From Myxococcus dinghuensis (GTDB taxonomy: Bacteria > Myxococcota > Myxococcia > Myxococcales > Myxococcaceae), in assembly GCF_024198235.1 (NCBI RefSeq), contig NZ_JAKCFB010000006.1:62001-126000 (forward strand): DNA of 64,000 bases, read 5' to 3'. Each line of letters begins with the position of its first letter. The first letter of the stretch is position 1. The notes beneath the pieces were generated by a model. That model saw nothing but the letters and a program-made list of their open reading frames with translations. It had not been told where the DNA came from and made no database searches. A program made the position numbers and the translations under genes. Below, piece after piece: positions 1 to 7,411 of this stretch.

Positions 1-526
1 ACGCCGGCACGCCGGTCTGCGCGTGGATCTCCAACGCGCGCACCACGCGCACCAGGTCCTGGGGTGGGAGCTTCGCGGCCGTCTCCGGGTCCACGAGCGC
101 CAGCCGGCGATGCACGGCCTCGCGGCCCTCCGTCATGGCCACGGCCTCCAGCTCCGCCCGCAGCGCCGGCAGCGCGCCCGGGGCCTCCACGACGCCATGC
201 AGGAGGACCCGGAGGTACAGCCCCGTGCCGCCCACCACGAACACGGGCTTGCCGCGCCGGGTGATGTCCGCGATGGCCGCGTCGGCGCGGCGCTGGTACT
301 CGGCCGCGGAGAACGCCTCGAGCGGGTCCACCTCCGAGATGAGGTGGTGCGGCACCGCGGCCAGCTCTCGCGCGGACGGCTTCGCGGTCCCGATGTCGAA
401 GTGCCGGTACACCTGCTGGGAATCCGCGCTGACGATCTCCCCACCCGCCCGGAGCGCCAGCTCGATGGCGAGCGCCGTCTTGCCCGAGGCCGTCGGGCCC
501 GCGATGACCGTGAGCCGGGGCCGCAT
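1..526 (-). CDS. miaA: tRNA dimethylallyltransferase (MiaA), 3'-truncated by window edge
   Basis: MiaA transfers a dimethylallyl group to N6 of A37 in tRNAs that read UNN codons. The reverse strand from an ATG at 526 reads MRPRLTVIAGPTASGKTAL, which is the P-loop (GPTASGKT) at the expected N-terminus. It is followed by the DSxQVYR substrate motif (SADSQQVYRHFDIGTAKP) and the H-H-L-I segment of MiaA. About 175 N-terminal residues are present; the C-terminal part lies beyond position 1. Its start is 11 bp after the stop of the HprK-like gene on the same strand, so it may be read through from that operon, although its job is unrelated housekeeping. Identification is firm from motifs; only the length is unknown. 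Confidence 0.93.
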   Translation of the reverse strand, partial: MRPRLTVIAGPTASGKTALAIELALRAGGEIVSADSQQVYRHFDIGTAKPSARELAAVPHHLISEVDPLEAFSAAEYQRRADAAIADITRRGKPVFVVGGTGLYLRVLLHGVVEAPGALPALRAELEAVAMTEGREAVHRRLALVDPETAAKLPPQDLVRVVRALEIHAQTGVPA

Positions 527-536
527 CACCTGTCCT

Positions 537-1454
537 TCACCCACGCCACATGCCTCCGAGGACCTCACGTATCACCCGCGCCGCCGAGGCATCCCTCGCG
601 AACACCAACCGCGAGGGCGGGACCTCCGACAGCAGCCGGCCCGCCGACGCCATCATCGCCGACCGCCCGCTCGCCGTGGCCTCCGGCAACAACGCATTGA
701 GCAGGAGCATCCGTCCCACCTCCCCCGCGGCCTGGGGCTCCACGCGCGACGTCGCATCCCACCCCAGCGTCCCCACCGTCGTCAGCTCCGCCTCGCGCGG
801 ATACCCGATGTTCCACGGGGTCCCCGCCGCCCACCAGCGCGCGGCGCGCGGCGCCTCGTGCGGCTCGGGCCAGAGCGCCACCAGCTCGTCGGACAACAGC
901 GCCCCGCCCGCCTCCGCCCAGAGCCCACCGAGGGTGCTCTTCCCCGCCCCGGAGTGTCCCGTGAAGAGCGCGGCGCGCGCTTCGTGCAGCACCCCCACGC
1001 CATGGACGAGCAACCCGCCTCGGCGCGCCAGGGCCTCCGCGAGCATCACCCGCAGCACCACCTCCACGGGGAACCGCCCCACCCCCGTGACGATCGCCCT
1101 CGTGCCGTCCGCGTCGAGCCGCGCCGAATAGTCCTCGCCCTCCAGACACAGGGCGCCCTCCGGCGAGCGCCAGGGGCTCGGGAGTCGTCGGGTGAGGACG
1201 GGCTCGGCGACCCGCGTCTCGGGAGCGACCAGCTCCAGTCGGGCACAGGTCGCGTCGGGGGGCGGCGTGGGGATGACGAAGCGCGAGAACGCGCCGAGGA
1301 GCCCTTCGCGGACGCGCTGGTCGGGGACGTGCAGCCGCACCGTCCAGCGGGCGATGGAGAGCCAGGGGCCCGTCGCGTCCGACGGGAGGCCCCCCGGGCC
1401 CGAGACCTCCTGGGGACCGGACGAGCCGGCTCCCAATGAACTCAGGGCGAGCAC
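537..1454 (-). CDS. HprK-like P-loop kinase of a PqqD-associated system
   Basis: 305 residues. The central block has Walker A GHSGAGKST (about residue 168), followed by an LLSDE segment matching the acidic site after the P-loop in HPr kinase/phosphorylase and PEP-carboxykinase folds. The N-terminal 150 residues are not HprK-like. Stand-alone HprK relatives of this type occur beside PqqD-like proteins (TIGRFAM authors used the term HPr-rel systems), and HprK homologues in some lasso peptide clusters phosphorylate a Ser of the precursor. The GTG start overlaps the end of the 57-residue peptide gene by 13 bp, implying coupling. I infer that it modifies the peptide or another envelope partner. 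A role as true HPr kinase is unlikely because no HPr/PTS genes are nearby. The start is a little uncertain: the first 25 residues look linker-like. Confidence 0.8.
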   Translation of the reverse strand: MLALSSLGAGSSGPQEVSGPGGLPSDATGPWLSIARWTVRLHVPDQRVREGLLGAFSRFVIPTPPPDATCARLELVAPETRVAEPVLTRRLPSPWRSPEGALCLEGEDYSARLDADGTRAIVTGVGRFPVEVVLRVMLAEALARRGGLLVHGVGVLHEARAALFTGHSGAGKSTLGGLWAEAGGALLSDELVALWPEPHEAPRAARWWAAGTPWNIGYPREAELTTVGTLGWDATSRVEPQAAGEVGRMLLLNALLPEATASGRSAMMASAGRLLSEVPPSRLVFARDASAARVIREVLGGMWRG

Positions 1455-1615
1455 TCCGACTCACCGGGGATGTTGCACTGGGACATCGCCGCGAGCGCGA
1501 CGAAGGGCTGCTCCCACAGGATGGCGGGCGCCTCGTAGCGAGGCGTCGCCACCGGGGAGGGCGCCGGCGCGGAGGCCTCCGCCAGCGGGGGCTCGGATGG
1601 GATGGATGGGGACAT
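1442..1615 (-). CDS. 57-residue Cys-containing peptide, candidate modified-peptide precursor
   Basis: ATG at 1615, TGA at 1442; 57 residues. It starts 5 bp after the stop of the propeller gene, and its end overlaps the HprK-like start by 13 bp, so it sits tightly inside the operon. The first 25 residues are Pro/Ala/Ser-rich. Then comes a motif YEAPAILWEQPF (residues 27-38), a small hydrophobic stretch, and a tail with two cysteines (Cys47 and Cys55, CX7C) that ends ECSP. The Y-x-x-P-x-I/L pattern resembles the leader motif bound by PqqD-like recognition elements in lasso peptide systems, which is suggestive given the PqqD-like protein encoded upstream. No function is established. It could instead be a small structural or secreted peptide. 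Its short length and overlap mean it could easily be missed in annotation. Confidence 0.68.
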   Translation of the reverse strand: MSPSIPSEPPLAEASAPAPSPVATPRYEAPAILWEQPFVALAAMSQCNIPGESECSP

Positions 1616-1620
1616 GGTGT

Positions 1621-4600
1621 TCACGGGAAGGGTACCGGGAAGGCGCAGATACGACCATCCTGCGAGCCCACGTGCAGTCGGGAGACGGTGGTGTCGATGG
1701 TGGGGGTGCCGACGAGCTGCGCCGAGCCCAGGGTGATCTGCTGGAGGTCGGCGCCGTTCAGGAAGTCGAGCACGTGGACCTTGCCGTCCGCGCCACCCGC
1801 GTAGAGGCGGACCACGCCACCCCGGTTGAGGCTGAACGTGCCCGAGGGGTTCGCGATGACCGTGCTCCACTTCCTCACAGGAGGCGTGGTCGCCGAGCCG
1901 GCGTTGTCCCAGAACTCCACCCTGCCGCTCGCCAGGCTCGCCATGAACCCACCGCCCTGGGGCCTCGAGAAGCTGGTGAACGCCGGAGGGGCGGACGACG
2001 AGGCACGCGAGGACACGGTGACGTTCCAGGCGGGCTGCATCGTCGCCAGGTCGATGGCATGGACCACGCCATCGCTGTTGCTGACCAGCACCTGGTTCGT
2101 CACCGCGTTGCGCACGAGGCTCAGCTCGATGTCCCCGAGCGAGAGCCGCCCCACCTCGGCGCCGGTGAGCGTGTTCAGGATGCGCAGCGACGACTGGGAG
2201 CCCGCATGCGTCTTCGCGCCGACGTAGAGGCGGTTGTTGGCGTAGTCGACCAGCATGCCGCCGCTGACCATGCCCAGGTCTCCGGGCCGGTAGGTGAAGA
2301 CCAGGGCGCCGGTGGCGGCGTTGAGGGCGACCACGCGGTTCTGCGACGCGTTCGAGAGGCGCGTGGCGAAGAAGACCAGGTCCGTGTTGGGTCGCGCGGC
2401 CTGGTAGGCGGCGTTCGCGTAGTCGTACAACTGGCTGACCGGGAACGACTGGATGGTGCCGATGGGGGCGCCGTTGTTGTCCCAGCGCCACAGGGGCACG
2501 CCGGTCGCGGTGTTGATGGCGTAGCCGACGCCCGACTGGTCCCCGACGAGGATGTACTGCCCCGGCAGCCCGCGCAGCGGCACCACCGGGAAGCGGCTGC
2601 CGATGAGGCCGGACAGCGGCAGCGGGCGCCACCGCTCGGCGCCGTCCAGCGCGGGGTTCGTCACCTGGGTGACGTTGGCGACCACGGAGTCGTTGAACGC
2701 GCTGAAGACGCCCACGCCCAGCTCGGTGATGGGCTGCTGGCGCGCGTCGAGGCCCACCGAGTAGCACCACAGCGGCCCTCCGGCGCGGGCCCTCGGCGTC
2801 GCCACCAGCGCGGCGGAGGTGGGGCGGTTGCCGGCCGAATACCACTTCACGTCGTCCGCGTTGAACACGCGGTAGTAGTACGTCGTGCCGTTGGTGACGC
2901 TCGTGTCCTCGAAGCTCGAGACCGCGCTGTACGCGTCCGCGTAGACGACCGTCGCGTTGCCCAGCGTGGCGCCCGCGGCATACGTCCGTCCCGCCACGGG
3001 CACGGTGTTCGGCGCGGCGTTGGCGGCGCGCAACACCACCACGCCGTTGTGCATCGACGGGTTGTCCCAGTTCAGCGTGACGCTGCCCTCGCGCGCCACC
3101 GCGGTGAAACGCTCGACCTCCGGCGCGGTGCCGGAGACCACCGTCATAGGGGTCTCGATGCGGTCATCCGAGCCGCTGTTGTAGGCCGTGGCCAGGTGGA
3201 CGCGGTGGCGGAACGGCGTGTTCGCGGTGACGGCGGTCACGGCGGTATACGTGACGGTGAAGGCGCGCTCCCCGCCCACGGGGATGCGGTTCGCGTCGTT
3301 GTTCGACTCCCACGTGATGCCCGCCGTGCTGTTGTTCACGCTCCAGCCCGCCACGGCGGGAATCGTGTTGGACACGGTGAAGTAGTTGGCGGCGGGCTTG
3401 ATGAGACGGACCTCGCCGAGCGGCACCTGCCCCCGGTTCTGGACCGTGTAGACCACGGTCTGCGCCGTGGTCCCCGACACGAGCGCGCTCGGGTTGGCCC
3501 GGACGCGGTGCGACACGATGTGCCCCTGCGAGGTGCTCACCAGGGACGTCGTCACCGCGCTCCCGTTGAGGGTGGCGTCGGCCTGGGCGTCGAAGATGTA
3601 GTCGGAGAACTCGGCGCCCGTGAGCTGATAGGTCCAGATGAAGTGCGCGGAGGTGCCCGGGGACAGGCGCGCGGCGCTCGCGGGCGTCGGCCCGGAGACG
3701 AGCGTCGCCCCCGACGTCCCCCGGAGCACCGGCGCGCGCGGCGTCACGTTCAGGTACGTGTTCGTCGTGGACGGGTTGGTGATGGTCATGCGCACCCTCA
3801 CCGTCTCGCCGGCGAAGGCGTCCAGCGCGTCCACGTCCAGCGCGGCCGGCAGCGCCCCCACGTTGACCATGGGCGTCGCGGCCACCTGGGAGGCGATGGT
3901 GTTGCCGGAGTTGCGTCCCCGGACGTACGCCACCAGCTCACCACCGCTCAGCGTCGTCACGCGGGCGCTGAGGATGCCCGCGCCGCGCGCGGGGAGGCTC
4001 ACCGTGAAGTTCGCCGGCTGGAGCTCGACGATCTCGAACGACACCAGCCCCACGTTCGAGGTGGGGCCCTCCCCCGTGATGTTCTGGATCGTGGTGTTCG
4101 AACTCGAGCGGTTCTCCAGGATGATGCGCGCGGTGATGTCGTCCTCGATCGGCAGCACGCGGGGCAGCGCGGTGACCTGGGCATAGAGGGTCGAGCGCAC
4201 CCACTGGGACGCGGCGTTGGTCAGGTTGCTCGCGGTGAAGTTCCCGCCCAGGCAGGTGTCCCGGCCGACCGTCCCGGCCGCGAACCGCTGGGCGGTCTGG
4301 TCCGCCGTGTTCTGGCTCGCGATCGTCCGGAGGGTGAACCGGACCGTCTCGTTCATCCGGAGCCCATAATTGCCCGACCCGCATGTGACGCCTGCTCGCG
4401 CGAAGGCGATGGTGCGGGAGGGGGCGTCGAAGTAGCTCACCATCCAGCCCGTGGGCGTCGGGCTCTCCAGCAACGCGTGGGTGTTCGGCAGGACGATGTA
4501 GATCTCGTTGAGGAGCTGGGTGTTGTTGTTCGACGTGTTGCGCACGTCGAAGGTCAGCTCGGAGACTTCATCCATGACGACGCGCGCGGTCGTCTCGCCC

Positions 4601-4719
4601 GGGTTTCGGACCTGGGTGAGGGTGATCGATCGCTGGGCGAAGGCCACGGAAGGCAGGACGAGACATACCAGCAGGGTCGCGAGGCGCGGAGTCGAGGAGG
4701 TCTTCACGAGGGCCCTCAC
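1621..4719 (-). CDS. Large secreted protein with Ig/FnIII-like domains and a C-terminal PQQ-type beta-propeller
   Basis: 1032 residues with a Sec signal peptide (residues 1-28, cleavage near VAFAQ). Residues 30-560 are Thr/Asn/Val-rich beta-sandwich repeats with phrases such as TFDVRNTSNNNTQ and TVQNRGQVPLGEV, typical of CARDB/DUF11-like adhesive domains. A fibronectin-III-like segment follows (EVERFTAVAREGSVTLNWDN to TYYYRVF, about 565-660). The last 330 residues contain blades of a PQQ-like propeller (VVALNAATGALVFTY, VVHAIDLATMQPAWNV, KVHVLDFLNGADLQQI). The GTG start is separated by one base from the TGA of the upstream lipoprotein, so translation is probably coupled. The protein is likely on the cell surface or in the periplasm. 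No quinoprotein dehydrogenase catalytic residues were recognised, so the propeller is probably a scaffold. Its role in the peptide/kinase operon is unknown. Confidence 0.88.
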   Translation of the reverse strand: MRALVKTSSTPRLATLLVCLVLPSVAFAQRSITLTQVRNPGETTARVVMDEVSELTFDVRNTSNNNTQLLNEIYIVLPNTHALLESPTPTGWMVSYFDAPSRTIAFARAGVTCGSGNYGLRMNETVRFTLRTIASQNTADQTAQRFAAGTVGRDTCLGGNFTASNLTNAASQWVRSTLYAQVTALPRVLPIEDDITARIILENRSSSNTTIQNITGEGPTSNVGLVSFEIVELQPANFTVSLPARGAGILSARVTTLSGGELVAYVRGRNSGNTIASQVAATPMVNVGALPAALDVDALDAFAGETVRVRMTITNPSTTNTYLNVTPRAPVLRGTSGATLVSGPTPASAARLSPGTSAHFIWTYQLTGAEFSDYIFDAQADATLNGSAVTTSLVSTSQGHIVSHRVRANPSALVSGTTAQTVVYTVQNRGQVPLGEVRLIKPAANYFTVSNTIPAVAGWSVNNSTAGITWESNNDANRIPVGGERAFTVTYTAVTAVTANTPFRHRVHLATAYNSGSDDRIETPMTVVSGTAPEVERFTAVAREGSVTLNWDNPSMHNGVVVLRAANAAPNTVPVAGRTYAAGATLGNATVVYADAYSAVSSFEDTSVTNGTTYYYRVFNADDVKWYSAGNRPTSAALVATPRARAGGPLWCYSVGLDARQQPITELGVGVFSAFNDSVVANVTQVTNPALDGAERWRPLPLSGLIGSRFPVVPLRGLPGQYILVGDQSGVGYAINTATGVPLWRWDNNGAPIGTIQSFPVSQLYDYANAAYQAARPNTDLVFFATRLSNASQNRVVALNAATGALVFTYRPGDLGMVSGGMLVDYANNRLYVGAKTHAGSQSSLRILNTLTGAEVGRLSLGDIELSLVRNAVTNQVLVSNSDGVVHAIDLATMQPAWNVTVSSRASSSAPPAFTSFSRPQGGGFMASLASGRVEFWDNAGSATTPPVRKWSTVIANPSGTFSLNRGGVVRLYAGGADGKVHVLDFLNGADLQQITLGSAQLVGTPTIDTTVSRLHVGSQDGRICAFPVPFP

Positions 4720-4720
4720 G

Positions 4721-5257
4721 TCATTGTTCCAGGGTGAAGGAGGCCGTGGTCAGCGGCGCCCCGTCGAAGAAGAAGCGGACCTGCCAGGTGCCGCTCATCG
4801 CGGACGTCGCCACGGTCGTCCCCGCCACCGGCAGGGAGAAGCGCACCGTCTTCGCGACGTCCGGGGCCACCGCCTGGATGACCGCCGAGCGCCGCTCGTA
4901 CGGGTGTCCCGCGGGCGAGATGAACTCCACCTCCACCGTGCCCTTGTCGTGCACGCCCCGCACCGTCAGGTCCACGTCCACCTGCTCGACGTCGGACACG
5001 CCGGAGCCCGTCCCCTGGGCCGCCACCTCCGCGGAGCCGGACAGCGGGACCACCGCCGGAGGCTCGCCCTCCACGGGGATCTCCGCCGCAGGGGGCTGGG
5101 CCGACTCGGACTCGTCCACCGGGTCCGTGGGCGCCACGGGGCCGACCGGCGTCTCCACCGGCGTGTCCGTCCATCCGCCCGGGCGAGGCGCGACACCTTG
5201 CTCCGTGCATGCGCCCAGCAGCAGCACCGCCGCGAAGCCCGAAATGCGTGCTCGCAT
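4721..5257 (-). CDS. Lipoprotein with Pro/Glu-rich linker and Ig-like C-terminal domain
   Basis: 178 residues from the ATG at 5257, which shares one base with the PqqD-like TGA (TGATG) and follows an AGGAGG seven bases upstream. A GTG immediately before (5260) is the alternative. Lipobox LLGAC sits near residue 17, so this should be a lipidated envelope protein. It is followed by a Pro/Glu/Thr linker to about residue 85 and then a beta-rich domain of about 90 residues that ends in GTWQVRFFFDG..L..ASFTLEQ, resembling Ig-like or macroglobulin-type sandwich modules. It lies directly upstream of the large propeller protein, and the two may form an envelope complex. No enzymatic motif is seen. Confidence 0.85.
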   Translation of the reverse strand: MRARISGFAAVLLLGACTEQGVAPRPGGWTDTPVETPVGPVAPTDPVDESESAQPPAAEIPVEGEPPAVVPLSGSAEVAAQGTGSGVSDVEQVDVDLTVRGVHDKGTVEVEFISPAGHPYERRSAVIQAVAPDVAKTVRFSLPVAGTTVATSAMSGTWQVRFFFDGAPLTTASFTLEQ

Positions 5258-5553
5258 CACCGTACCTCCTGAAGCTCGTCGATGAGGCCCAGCCGGGCCA
5301 GATCCGACAGGAATCGAAGCGTGTCCGAGAGGACCTGCTTCACGTCCATGGAGAACTCGCGGGCCACCACCTCGGCCACCGCGCGCGCCGTCCGCGTCCC
5401 GTCGCTGAGTTCCCAGATTCTCACCGCGGTCGCGTTGAGGCCGCGCAACGTCCGCCCCTCCGCGTCCAGCAGCAGGTAGTCCGCGCCGAAGCGCTGTCCA
5501 TCCGCCCCGGCCCGCCGCCGGGGATGGCTCTCCGGCTCGAAGACGCCGCTCAC
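5257..5553 (-). CDS. PqqD-family peptide-binding protein
   Basis: 98 residues from a GTG at 5553 that overlaps the peptidase stop by 4 bp (GTGA); the open frame extends further upstream but lacks family character. It contains the PqqD/RRE pattern: a D-Y-L-L-L-D strand, G-R-T-L-R-G-L-N-A-T-A, an R-I-W-E-L helix (about 40-57), then winged-helix helices ending DLARLGLIDE. PqqD-like proteins bind leader peptides and present them to modifying enzymes; in HPr-rel systems they travel with HprK-like kinases. No PqqA, PqqC or PqqE is encoded here, so this is not pyrroloquinoline quinone synthesis. I infer that it presents the 57-residue peptide, or another client, to the kinase or peptidase of this operon. 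Confidence 0.85.
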   Translation of the reverse strand: MSGVFEPESHPRRRAGADGQRFGADYLLLDAEGRTLRGLNATAVRIWELSDGTRTARAVAEVVAREFSMDVKQVLSDTLRFLSDLARLGLIDELQEVR

Positions 5554-5978
5554 GGCCGCGCCCCCTTCCCCAGCCAGCGCGCCACCCGGCGCTTCACCAG
5601 CGCCCGGACGCGCCCCAGCCGCGACGGGCCCCAATCCCACCCCTCCAGCTCCACCCCCGCGCGGCGCACCCGGCGCACGCGCCCGAGCACGTGTGACAGG
5701 GGCAAGGGAGGATCCACCCGCGCGGCGTTGTCACCCCGCAGGGACAACATGCCCTGCCCCGTGGCCCGGACCCGGTGGAGCACGAGCGCCTCGGCGAAGC
5801 GCGCCAGCACCACCTCGCCTGGACGGGGCGCTGCTTCCAGCGGCTCCACGCCCGCGAGGTCTCCCGCGCGCAACGAGGGCCACATGCTGTCTCCCTGGAC
5901 GGGAATCCAGCGCAGCCCCGAAGGCATGGCGGACGTGGACGACTCGCGCGACATGGCACGAAACAATACCGCAGCCAT
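5550..5978 (-). CDS. S26-type signal peptidase-like Ser protease (Ser/His dyad form)
   Basis: About 142 residues. The motif QGDSMWPSLRAGD (box B, catalytic Ser) is followed by GEVVLARF...LVLHRV and by SLRGDNAARVD (box E, GDN). In bacterial LepB the general base is Lys; here the equivalent position reads LHRV, as in archaeal/ER-type S26B and S24-like peptidases, suggesting a Ser/His dyad. No strong N-terminal membrane anchor is visible. It is the first gene of the operon and overlaps the PqqD-like gene by 4 bp. Candidate starts are GTG 5987, ATG 5978 and ATG 5954; none has a clear ribosome site. The likely role is leader or signal cleavage of an operon product, by inference from context. Confidence 0.8.
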   Translation of the reverse strand: MAAVLFRAMSRESSTSAMPSGLRWIPVQGDSMWPSLRAGDLAGVEPLEAAPRPGEVVLARFAEALVLHRVRATGQGMLSLRGDNAARVDPPLPLSHVLGRVRRVRRAGVELEGWDWGPSRLGRVRALVKRRVARWLGKGARP

Positions 5979-6021
5979 GAACGTCACGCGAATGAGTCCC
6001 GGTGGAATCCCCTAGAATTTC

Positions 6022-6045
6022 CCGGAGGTTACAAGGCTCCTCCGG
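6022..6045. repeat. Perfect 7-bp inverted repeat upstream of the PqqD/HprK operon
   Basis: CCGGAGG (6022-6028) and CCTCCGG (6039-6045) flank a 10-base AT-richer loop. It lies between the end of hisS and the first gene of the peptidase-PqqD-HprK operon, 44 bp before the putative ATG. It could be an operator, or a hairpin separating hisS transcription from the operon. There is no U-tract on the minus strand, so a classical terminator is unlikely. Confidence 0.4.
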
Positions 6046-6106
6046 TTTCTAACGGTTCACTGGGACTCCGGGACTCACGCGTTCGGTCCCAGGCTCCGCC
6101 CGCTCC

Positions 6107-7411
6107 TCAGCCCTGCGAGCTGGCGCCGGAGGCGGACTCGGCCTTCCGGGTCCGGACGGTGGCGATCAGCGCGGCCGGCTCGAGCGACGTCTCCCACTGT
6201 TGTCCATTGGACATCTGCTTGAGCTTGGCCTGCCCGCTGGTGCGCTCCAGCTCGCCCAGCACCAGGGTGAAGTGGGCGCCGCTCTTGTCGGCGCGCTTCA
6301 TCTGGCTCTTGAGGCTGCCGCCGCGGGTATCGAAGTCGACCCGGAGGCCCTGGTGACGCAGCCGCCCCGCCAGGGCGAAGGCCGCGTCGTGCGAGCCGGG
6401 GTCCGCCGCCGCGATGAAGAGGTCCGGCACCTGGGCGAAGGACTTCCCGCTCTCCTTCAGCAGGAGCACGAGCCGGTCCAACCCGCAGGCGAACCCAACC
6501 GCGGGGGTGTCCGGGCCGCCCAGGCTCTTCACCAGCTTGTCGTAGCGCCCGCCGGCGCTCACCGTGCTGGCGGTGCTCAGCGCCGGGTGCGAGGCGACGA
6601 ACTCGAAGACGGTGCGCGTGTAGTAGTCCAGGCCGCGCACCATGCGCGGGTTGACCACGAAGCGGATCTCCAGCGCGGTCAGCTTGCGCTGCACGTCGTC
6701 GAAGTGCGCCTTGCAGGGCTCGCAGAGGAAGTCGAGCACGCTGGGGCCCTGGGCCGCCACCGCCTGGCACTTCGGGTTCTTGCAGTCGAGCACGCGCAGG
6801 GGGTTCGTCTCGAGGCGCCGGTGACAGTCCTCGCACAGCTCCGGCTTGTGTGCCTGGAGGTACTCGACCAGCTTCGCGTGGTACTGGGGACGGCACACCT
6901 CGTCGCCGAGCGAGTTGAGGTTGAGCGTGATGTCCTGGAGGCCCAGCGCCTGGAGGAAGCGCGCCACCATGTCCATCACCTCGACGTCCTGGGCCGCGTC
7001 CTTGGAGCCGTACGCCTCCGCGCCGATCTGCGAGAACTGCCGGTAGCGGCCCGTCTGCATCCGCTCGTAGCGGAACATGGGCCCCATGTAGAACCACCGC
7101 GTCAGCGGCTCCTGGGTGGCGACGGAGTGCTCGATGTACGCCCGCGCCGCGGGGGCCGTGCCCTCCGGGCGCATGGACAGGCTGCGGCCCGCCTTGTCGT
7201 CGAAGGTGTACATCTCCTTGCCGACGATGTCCGTCTCCTCGCCCACGCTGCGCACGAACAGCGCGGTGTCCTCCACCATGGGCGTGCGGAGCTCCCCGTA
7301 GCCGTAGCGGCCGAACAGCTCACGGGCCAGGCCCTCGACGTGCTGCCAGAGCTCGATCTCCCCGGGGAGGAGATCCCTCATGCCCTTGACGCTGACGATC
7401 TTCTGGCTCAC
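6107..7411 (-). CDS. hisS: Histidyl-tRNA synthetase
   Basis: 434 residues from GTG 7411, which overlaps the psd stop by 4 bp (GTGA). It opens VSQKIVSVKGMRDLLPGE, the usual HisRS N-terminus. Class II motif 2 (MGPMFRYERMQTGRYRQFSQIG) and the HisRS-specific LDYYTRTVFE and CGLDRL motifs are intact, followed by an anticodon-binding domain (LFIAAADPGSHDAAFALAGRLRHQ). A CxxC/CxxC insert sits in the middle (LCEDCHRR...CKNPKC plus LCEPCKAHF), a pattern seen in many HisRS of this size class. It charges tRNA-His in the cytoplasm. The same open frame runs further upstream over psd, but that part is shadow. Confidence 0.97.
   Translation of the reverse strand: MSQKIVSVKGMRDLLPGEIELWQHVEGLARELFGRYGYGELRTPMVEDTALFVRSVGEETDIVGKEMYTFDDKAGRSLSMRPEGTAPAARAYIEHSVATQEPLTRWFYMGPMFRYERMQTGRYRQFSQIGAEAYGSKDAAQDVEVMDMVARFLQALGLQDITLNLNSLGDEVCRPQYHAKLVEYLQAHKPELCEDCHRRLETNPLRVLDCKNPKCQAVAAQGPSVLDFLCEPCKAHFDDVQRKLTALEIRFVVNPRMVRGLDYYTRTVFEFVASHPALSTASTVSAGGRYDKLVKSLGGPDTPAVGFACGLDRLVLLLKESGKSFAQVPDLFIAAADPGSHDAAFALAGRLRHQGLRVDFDTRGGSLKSQMKRADKSGAHFTLVLGELERTSGQAKLKQMSNGQQWETSLEPAALIATVRTRKAESASGASSQG

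Follow-up and report, generated by a model that had tools for sequence, protein, structure and literature searches.

A conserved six-gene operon between hisS and miaA in myxobacteria as a candidate pathway to a phosphorylated ribosomal peptide

The window analysed here is a 64,000-nucleotide stretch of Myxococcus dinghuensis (RefSeq assembly GCF_024198235.1, contig NZ_JAKCFB010000006.1; G000:C81:62001-126000), taken from a parent genome of 10.4 Mb in 124 contigs. It carries an operon of six minus-strand genes that begins 119 bp past hisS and includes a small precursor peptide, a PqqD-like RiPP recognition element (RRE; RiPP, ribosomally synthesized and post-translationally modified peptide), a peptidase and a kinase (Table 1). 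The genes run in the order hisS, peptidase, PqqD-like protein, lipoprotein, propeller protein, peptide, kinase, miaA, with the likely ATG of miaA (read by eye) 10 bp beyond the kinase stop. An earlier note on this DNA, made from the letters alone, had placed six overlapping or nearly touching genes here, and direct reading bore out its positions, frames, strand and junctions. The peptidase and PqqD-like genes overlap by GTGA, the PqqD-like and lipoprotein genes overlap in GTGATG, the lipoprotein and propeller genes are separated by 1 bp, and the peptide and kinase genes overlap by 13 bp. The junction between propeller and peptide depends on the peptide start, being a 5-bp gap with the ATG at 1615 (57 amino acids, aa) or a GTGA overlap with the GTG at 1624 (60 aa). 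The GTG is the likelier start because 24 of 39 relatives have their first usable start at −4, starts being assigned to the first start codon around the end of the propeller frame. Thus the frame and two cysteines of the "57-residue Cys peptide" stand, while its length is probably 60 residues, and the peptide and PqqD-like starts are probably both placed at GTGA overlaps. A scan of positions 1-6400 found no promoter or terminator; shuffled sequences gave 0.2 and 1.2, so this null is uninformative. None of the six proteins had a PADLOC match at E≤0.01, and a role in anti-phage defence was rejected for lack of such matches.

Table 1. Genes of the operon, with positions in the window.
Feature	Position	Strand	Length (aa)	Remarks
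Signal-peptidase-like Ser protease, SipW/archaeal type (S26/S24)	5550..5987	-	145	Predicted leader peptidase, LppS-like; alternative ATG 5978
PqqD-like discrete RRE	5257..5553	-	98	GTG start overlaps peptidase stop
Lipoprotein	4721..5260	-	179	Lipobox Cys18, disordered linker, C-terminal beta-sandwich (74-178)
Secreted propeller protein	1621..4719	-	1032	Signal peptide (by eye), stack of Ig-like beta domains, C-terminal BamB-like beta-propeller
Precursor peptide	1442..1624	-	60	YxxP motif, predicted cleavage ALA/AMS, Ser+3, two Cys
HprK-like P-loop kinase	537..1454	-	305	LppK/PadeK-like role proposed

The operon recurs within its family. Of 195 genomes searched across the phylum, at least 53 matched a profile of the peptide at E≤1.1e-10, every one in the window's family; in the order, at least 95 of 145 genomes had some kinase match, a figure that takes in distant kinases at other loci. 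Both counts are lower bounds, since at most 41 candidates per genome were scored for the peptide and at most 16 for the kinase. By profile search the conserved part of the peptide is intact and free of stops in all 27 genomes of the genus, so the frame that the earlier note had wished to see checked in close relatives is not broken there. Within the genus the core is single-copy and occupies one fixed chromosomal place between hisS and miaA. For the neighbourhood comparison that the note had also proposed, 40 regions were chosen from the stronger kinase matches, and several loci split over contig ends, among others, were left out. All six genes occurred together in 37 of the 40 (tblastn, E≤0.01), and in 33 both hisS and miaA also fell inside the fetched stretch. 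The genes are thus not scattered, except that the gene set is split or partial in the outlying genomes G092, G091 and G128. In G092 the kinase stands alone at L069, and a second contig (L104) carries the peptidase, RRE and peptide. In G128 the lipoprotein-propeller-peptide set is present twice (L102, L103), with an opposite-strand RRE beside one copy and only a weak kinase match. Seven further genomes match the peptide profile weakly; in G091 the match adjoins a kinase and for that reason is probably real. At L106, in a genome of another family (G015), peptidase, RRE, peptide, a large propeller-type protein and kinase are all present. These comparisons confirm that the observation is genuine and beyond chance.

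From its tyrosine onward the peptide reads YEAPAILWEQPFVALAAMSQCNIPGESECSP. Numbered from the predicted cleavage site, Y-16, P-13, W-9, Q-7, F-5, V-4, L-2 and A-1 are constant in 40 of 40 peptides, and a serine is found at +3 in 39. Exactly two cysteines lie downstream of the predicted cut in each of 39 relatives; their positions shift, one being at +5, near Ser+3, in 34 of 40 peptides. The Pro/Ser-rich stretch ahead of the tyrosine is variable. Nonsynonymous (pN) and synonymous (pS) divergence were calculated for the 31 codons from the tyrosine to the end in the 33 of 39 peptides that have this length, and for every third pair of the other genes. The peptide gave a pN of 0.095 and a pS of 0.323, compared with pN values of 0.196-0.265 for the other five genes. 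The ratio pN/pS is the fairer measure, because synonymous divergence is also lower in the peptide, and it stands at 0.295 for the peptide versus 0.46-0.64 for the rest. By either measure the peptide shows the strongest constraint in the operon. Searches with the peptide yielded no match in NCBIfam (14 peptide rows) and one chance match in the PDB (profile, E 0.81).

The family assignments in the earlier note, which it had proposed to check against PqqD, HPr-rel and S26 models, held for three proteins and less well for the fourth. Matches above the Pfam cut-offs were obtained for the RRE (PF05402 PqqD, E 1.2e-13), the peptidase (PF00717 Peptidase_S24, E 7.2e-9) and the propeller protein (PQQ_2, E 6.1e-12). 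The more specific models TIGR02228 (peptidase, E 2.1e-6), TIGR04353 (RRE) and TIGR04352 (kinase, E 4.9e-5, 22.6 bits for a cut-off of 200) were all below their cut-offs, and the relation of the kinase to HprK is weak. In six of eight genomes searched, that of the window included, the RRE is the sole PF05402 match. Several residues are fixed: N39, D76 and F80 of the RRE in 40 of 40 sequences (numbering begins at the Ser after the start codon), S34, H71, D86 and D92 of the peptidase in 38 of 38, and H151, S168, G169, G171, K172, S173, T174, D189 and E190 of the kinase in 41 of 41.

The earlier note could not name this system. A close named relative of its core is now available in the linear polyphosphorylated peptides (LPPs) of Bacillota (Popov et al., Nat Commun, 20 May 2026, PMC13381572), and our search of the available literature listed no paper on a myxobacterial version. 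According to the accessible part of the LPP paper, the cluster of Paenibacillus alginolyticus has the order lppA-K-B-S-D-N. Its discrete RRE, LppB, binds Y-16 and P-13 of the precursor LppA through D70 and N33; the HprK-like kinase LppK places several phosphates onto core Ser3 and does not accept Thr; and the SipW-like LppS (S29/H68/D93) cuts the leader after T-1 in an LppB-dependent manner. The scan motif used there, Px9Fx[T/A], permits A at -1. The paper describes LPPs as confined to Bacillota and patchy in distribution, with neither function nor end product known. In the main text, as far as available, the strings myxoc, proteobacteria, pseudomonadota and deltaproteo do not occur, and in the available part of an RRE survey (PMC12710340) Myxococcus appears in the reference list only.

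A single scan of a genome collection with a stretch of LppB provided 17 Paenibacillus loci for comparison, of which L122 is P. alginolyticus DSM 5050. The profile comparison of the kinase used 13 of the 17 LppK rows, since L126, L131, L133 and L134 had returned the neighbouring lasso-type kinase and were dropped. The RRE matched LppB at 2.3e-8, and its N39, D76 and F80 occupy the positions of LppB N33, D70 and F74, where the Paenibacillus proteins keep N in 17/17, D in 16/17 and F in 17/17. A second RRE in these loci, beside the lasso-type kinase and taken here as a lasso RRE, has G for the N in 17/17 and H, E or Q for the D. For the profile of the myxobacterial RRE, the best PDB match was the lasso RRE TbiB1 (1.1e-7) and the second the LPP structure 9x8z (E 1.4e-6). 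At L104 (1882-2814) a WxxP precursor is paired with an RRE having Glu in place of the Tyr-binding Asp, a single case of possible covariation between leader and RRE. Peptidase residues S34/H71/D92 align with LppS S29/H68/D93 (profile match E 1.1e-8), and the kinase matched LppK over nearly its full length (E 6.8e-12, 241 columns).

The precursors can be set in one ungapped register with equal spacing. LppA at L122 reads YARPMVLSQQPVRFETAQS, and YARPMVLSQQPVRFET/AQS of LppA corresponds to YEAPAILWEQPFVALA/xxS of the myxobacterial peptide, the slash marking the cleavage position. The two agree at Y-16, P-13, L-10, Q-7, P-6 and S3. Of the LPP motif YxxPxVLxHQxIxFETxxS, the Y, P, [VI], L, Q and S are shared, and H, I, F, E and T are replaced by E, F, A, L and A. 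Beyond the Y/P anchors this likeness is modest and should be taken as suggestive, not strong; the RRE gives the firmer sequence argument for an LPP-like system.

Taken together, these data make it probable that the operon yields a small RiPP by an LPP-like route. The gene set, the register of the precursor, the catalytic and leader-binding residues and their conservation are plain from the alignments, and from them we infer the binding, phosphorylation, cleavage, export or destination, and partnership that follow. The PqqD-like RRE would grip the leader by Y-16 and P-13 and present the peptide to two enzymes. The HprK-like kinase would phosphorylate it at Ser+3, and the SipW-like Ser/His/Asp peptidase would cut it after the ALA that ends at -1. 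The predicted product is a linear 15-residue peptide with a phosphorylated serine and two cysteines, probably joined in an extracellular disulphide. The lipoprotein and the Ig/propeller protein would be partners on the envelope side, as receptor, carrier or substrate of the product. In this respect the kinase-modified peptide system suggested in the earlier note remains the best reading, and its analogy with the HprK homologues of lasso clusters points the right way.

The same comparisons bear on another origin, in which the operon is a decayed pathway of lasso-peptide or PQQ type that relies for its completion on enzymes encoded elsewhere in the genome. YxxP leaders and PqqD-type RREs are common to lasso pathways, the kinase is as near to the lasso-type kinase as to LppK, and a partial match to the lasso B2 family PF13471 (positions 57-97 of 117, 27.7 bits, cut-off 26) is present elsewhere in the genome. 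However, as the earlier note had remarked, there is no cyclase or PQQ gene among the six proteins (a genome-wide cyclase search was not made), and the RRE scores 26.5 bits against the 46 required for the PqqD equivalog TIGR03859. A lasso ring would need Asp or Glu at positions 7-9, and the common form of the core has neither. We consider such an origin very improbable. The PF13471 match lies at L141 (G000:C39:116940-117065), and similar single matches were seen in the other seven genomes searched.

Most of the operon is taken up by the two secreted proteins, whose frames touch or overlap those of their neighbours. Cys18 of the lipobox is constant in 17 of 17 lipoprotein rows. The AlphaFold2 model of this protein has a mean predicted local distance difference test (pLDDT) score of 74.8, higher in the sandwich, and its fold gave only generic matches of low template modelling (TM) score in the PDB. 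The model of the propeller protein (mean pLDDT 79.7) shows a stack of immunoglobulin (Ig)-like domains followed by a BamB-like propeller, whose start is of low confidence; pLDDT drops below 50 within parts of residues 644-701. Alignments to BamB chains cover about 360-430 columns with TM(target) of 0.52-0.78, even though chains of TM ~0.1 score better E-values. Four cysteines of the propeller protein, C113, C156, C652 and C1025, are conserved.

This arrangement raises the question of whether the phosphoserine is an end point or an intermediate. In the latter case an activated serine, or a cysteine, would be joined elsewhere, for example as a lanthionine or by attachment to the lipoprotein or propeller protein, and the result would be a modified surface protein in place of a free peptide. 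The proximity of Ser+3 to a cysteine and the close coupling of the secreted proteins to the operon favour this view, as does the report that LppK adds several phosphates and that the final LPP product is not known (PMC13381572, as far as available). On the other hand, no lyase, cyclase or transferase was recognised among the six proteins, and the four propeller cysteines could pair with one another; we judge an intermediate unlikely.

Alternatively, peptidase and kinase might serve the export, processing or regulation of the propeller protein and lipoprotein, with the peptide acting as an unmatured inhibitor, chaperone or regulator. The share of the operon taken by these two proteins fits this idea, and S26 enzymes in general usually cleave exported proteins. 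The invariant leader-binding residues of the RRE argue otherwise, as do two loci at which the modification genes are found apart from the secreted proteins. At L104 a peptidase, RRE and peptide stand in a 9.0-kb stretch that gave no match to propeller or lipoprotein; at L105 the 9.7-kb stretch, cut off by a contig end, carries RRE, peptide and kinase and likewise gave no match to either secreted protein.

Moreover, [Y/W]xxP peptides precede HprK-like kinases at loci whose large proteins belong to other families. Fifteen divergent kinase loci of Myxococcota (L107-L121), hand-picked for range, were scanned on the kinase strand over an interval that opened 350 bp ahead of the kinase frame and closed 60 bp within it; for some of them the start used was that of a stop-to-stop frame. 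A small frame with [Y/W]xxPx[ILVFA] was found at the kinase start in 10 of the 15, for an expectation of 0.78 from the same loci. FG-GAP and bacterial Ig-type matches were obtained for the four large neighbouring proteins examined, 1481-1957 aa in size (L107, L117, L118, L120), and several of the 15 loci had PqqD or S26 profile matches. We judge it unlikely that the enzymes serve the secreted proteins and leave the peptide unmatured. The survey also revealed a second type of cluster, composed of a giant protein, a YxxP peptide with Cys, an HprK-like kinase and an S26-profile match (L107:5218-13359, L111:213-8372, L112:5402-12996, L113:6032-12975 and L118:803-7181). Its giant protein is Ig/FG-GAP by Pfam in the two loci compared, L107 and L118, PqqD-profile matches occur in L107, L111 and L118, and in L112 the S26-profile match and a GNAT domain share one frame. 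At L117:5900-8554 and L121:2291-6700, a radical-S-adenosylmethionine-like frame (CxxxCxxC by eye) lies beside or is fused with an HprK-like kinase, with an S26-profile match.

Several observations weigh against the LPP-like route. One peptide of the 40 (L070) has no Ser at +3, and the more distant L105 peptide has Thr there. L070 and L071 have no S26 peptidase detectable by tblastn or profile, although L071 begins at a contig end. Without the Y/P anchors, 382 of 20000 column permutations equalled the likeness to LppA, and the profiles of the whole precursors resembled each other only weakly (depending on setting, a probability of 1.4% with E 0.036 or of 7.5% with E 0.0046). A tree of the RREs, covering 13 of the 39 focal relatives, sets the myxobacterial and LPP proteins in separate clades, on few columns and with long branches. 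At equal settings the kinase matched the neighbouring lasso-type kinase of the Paenibacillus loci (E 2.2e-13, 62 columns) about as well as LppK; its descent therefore does not support LPP over lasso, and our confidence in an LPP-like system is slightly lowered, because the kinase is not specially LppK-like. Among the features that define LPP clusters, the operon has a Ser/His/Asp SipW-type peptidase, a discrete RRE with equivalents of N33 and D70, what appears to be an HprK-like kinase, and six proteins free of lasso cyclase or B2. The six include no NTP-transferase (LppN) or MsbA-like exporter (LppD), which belong to the LPP core cluster, and the RRE falls outside the Bacillota LPP clade. NTP_transf_5 occurs at four places in the window's genome, all outside the operon. 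Two such genes stand near sugar-polymer-type genes (by eye) at L147:6710-9452 (G000:C74), and it is possible that they act as partners in trans.

A further point on this side concerns the secreted proteins. In all 17 Paenibacillus lpp loci, a lipoprotein-like frame of 427 aa and a secreted-like frame of 573 aa lie directly upstream of lppA (L122:3870-6896, and the equivalent place in L123-L138), in the same order before the precursor as in the myxobacterial operon. Profile comparison did not support homology of the propeller protein and lipoprotein to these frames (E 0.6 and 0.13), and such homology was rejected. The Paenibacillus frames may belong instead to the surrounding polysaccharide genes; the terms lipoprotein and secreted are absent from the main text of the LPP paper (PMC13381572), as far as available. 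Weighing these points, the operon most likely functions like an LPP system yet stands outside the published LPP clade.

What would be new is an LPP-like system in a phylum from which LPPs had been reported missing, with a near-invariant inherited core and a secreted propeller partner. As to its purpose, we put forward tentatively, and as a possibility still on the doubtful side, that the mature two-Cys phosphopeptide is a housekeeping phospho-RiPP, being a signal, a ligand or a cofactor-like part of the secreted Ig/propeller protein and not an antibiotic. Such roles suggest themselves from general experience with RiPPs because the core is short, nearly fixed, single-copy and confined to one chromosomal place. 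If this picture is true, Myxococcota would contain a broader class of envelope module that unites HprK-like kinases and [Y/W]xxP peptides with large secreted propeller proteins of BamB-like or FG-GAP type. Myxococcus-type bacteria are widely used to study development and motility. A fixed locus with a constant 15-residue core would be a clean setting in which to learn what RRE/HprK/SipW peptides are for; the operon links them to specific secreted proteins, and it provides a rule for finding further such clusters in Myxococcota.

Four known systems invite comparison. NCBIfam HPr-rel-A (TIGR04352 kinase with TIGR04353 PqqD_rel_X) likewise joins a kinase to a PqqD-family protein, but membership was rejected because the operon scores under the curated cut-offs, 22.6 of 200 and 20.4 of 35. 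PQQ synthesis was rejected on the equivalog score given above. Phosphorylated lasso peptides of the paeninodin type share an HprK-like kinase (PadeK), a discrete RRE and a [Y/W]xxP leader. They differ in having a macrolactam cyclase (C) and a B2 peptidase, neither of which was found among the six operon proteins, and lasso membership was rejected on this ground; the Asn/Asp of the myxobacterial RRE also contrasts with the Gly and H/E/Q of the lasso-side Paenibacillus RREs. LPP clusters share the discrete RRE, the HprK-like kinase, the SipW-like Ser/His/Asp peptidase, the YxxP precursor, a Ser three residues past a T/A cleavage position, and the lack of a cyclase of their own. They are reported from another phylum, Bacillota, their leader ends in FET where the myxobacterial peptide has VALA, and their C-terminus is variable where the myxobacterial core is short and nearly invariant. 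Finally, LPP clusters are patchy, whereas the myxobacterial operon is fixed between hisS and miaA and has the BamB-like propeller protein as a feature of its own.

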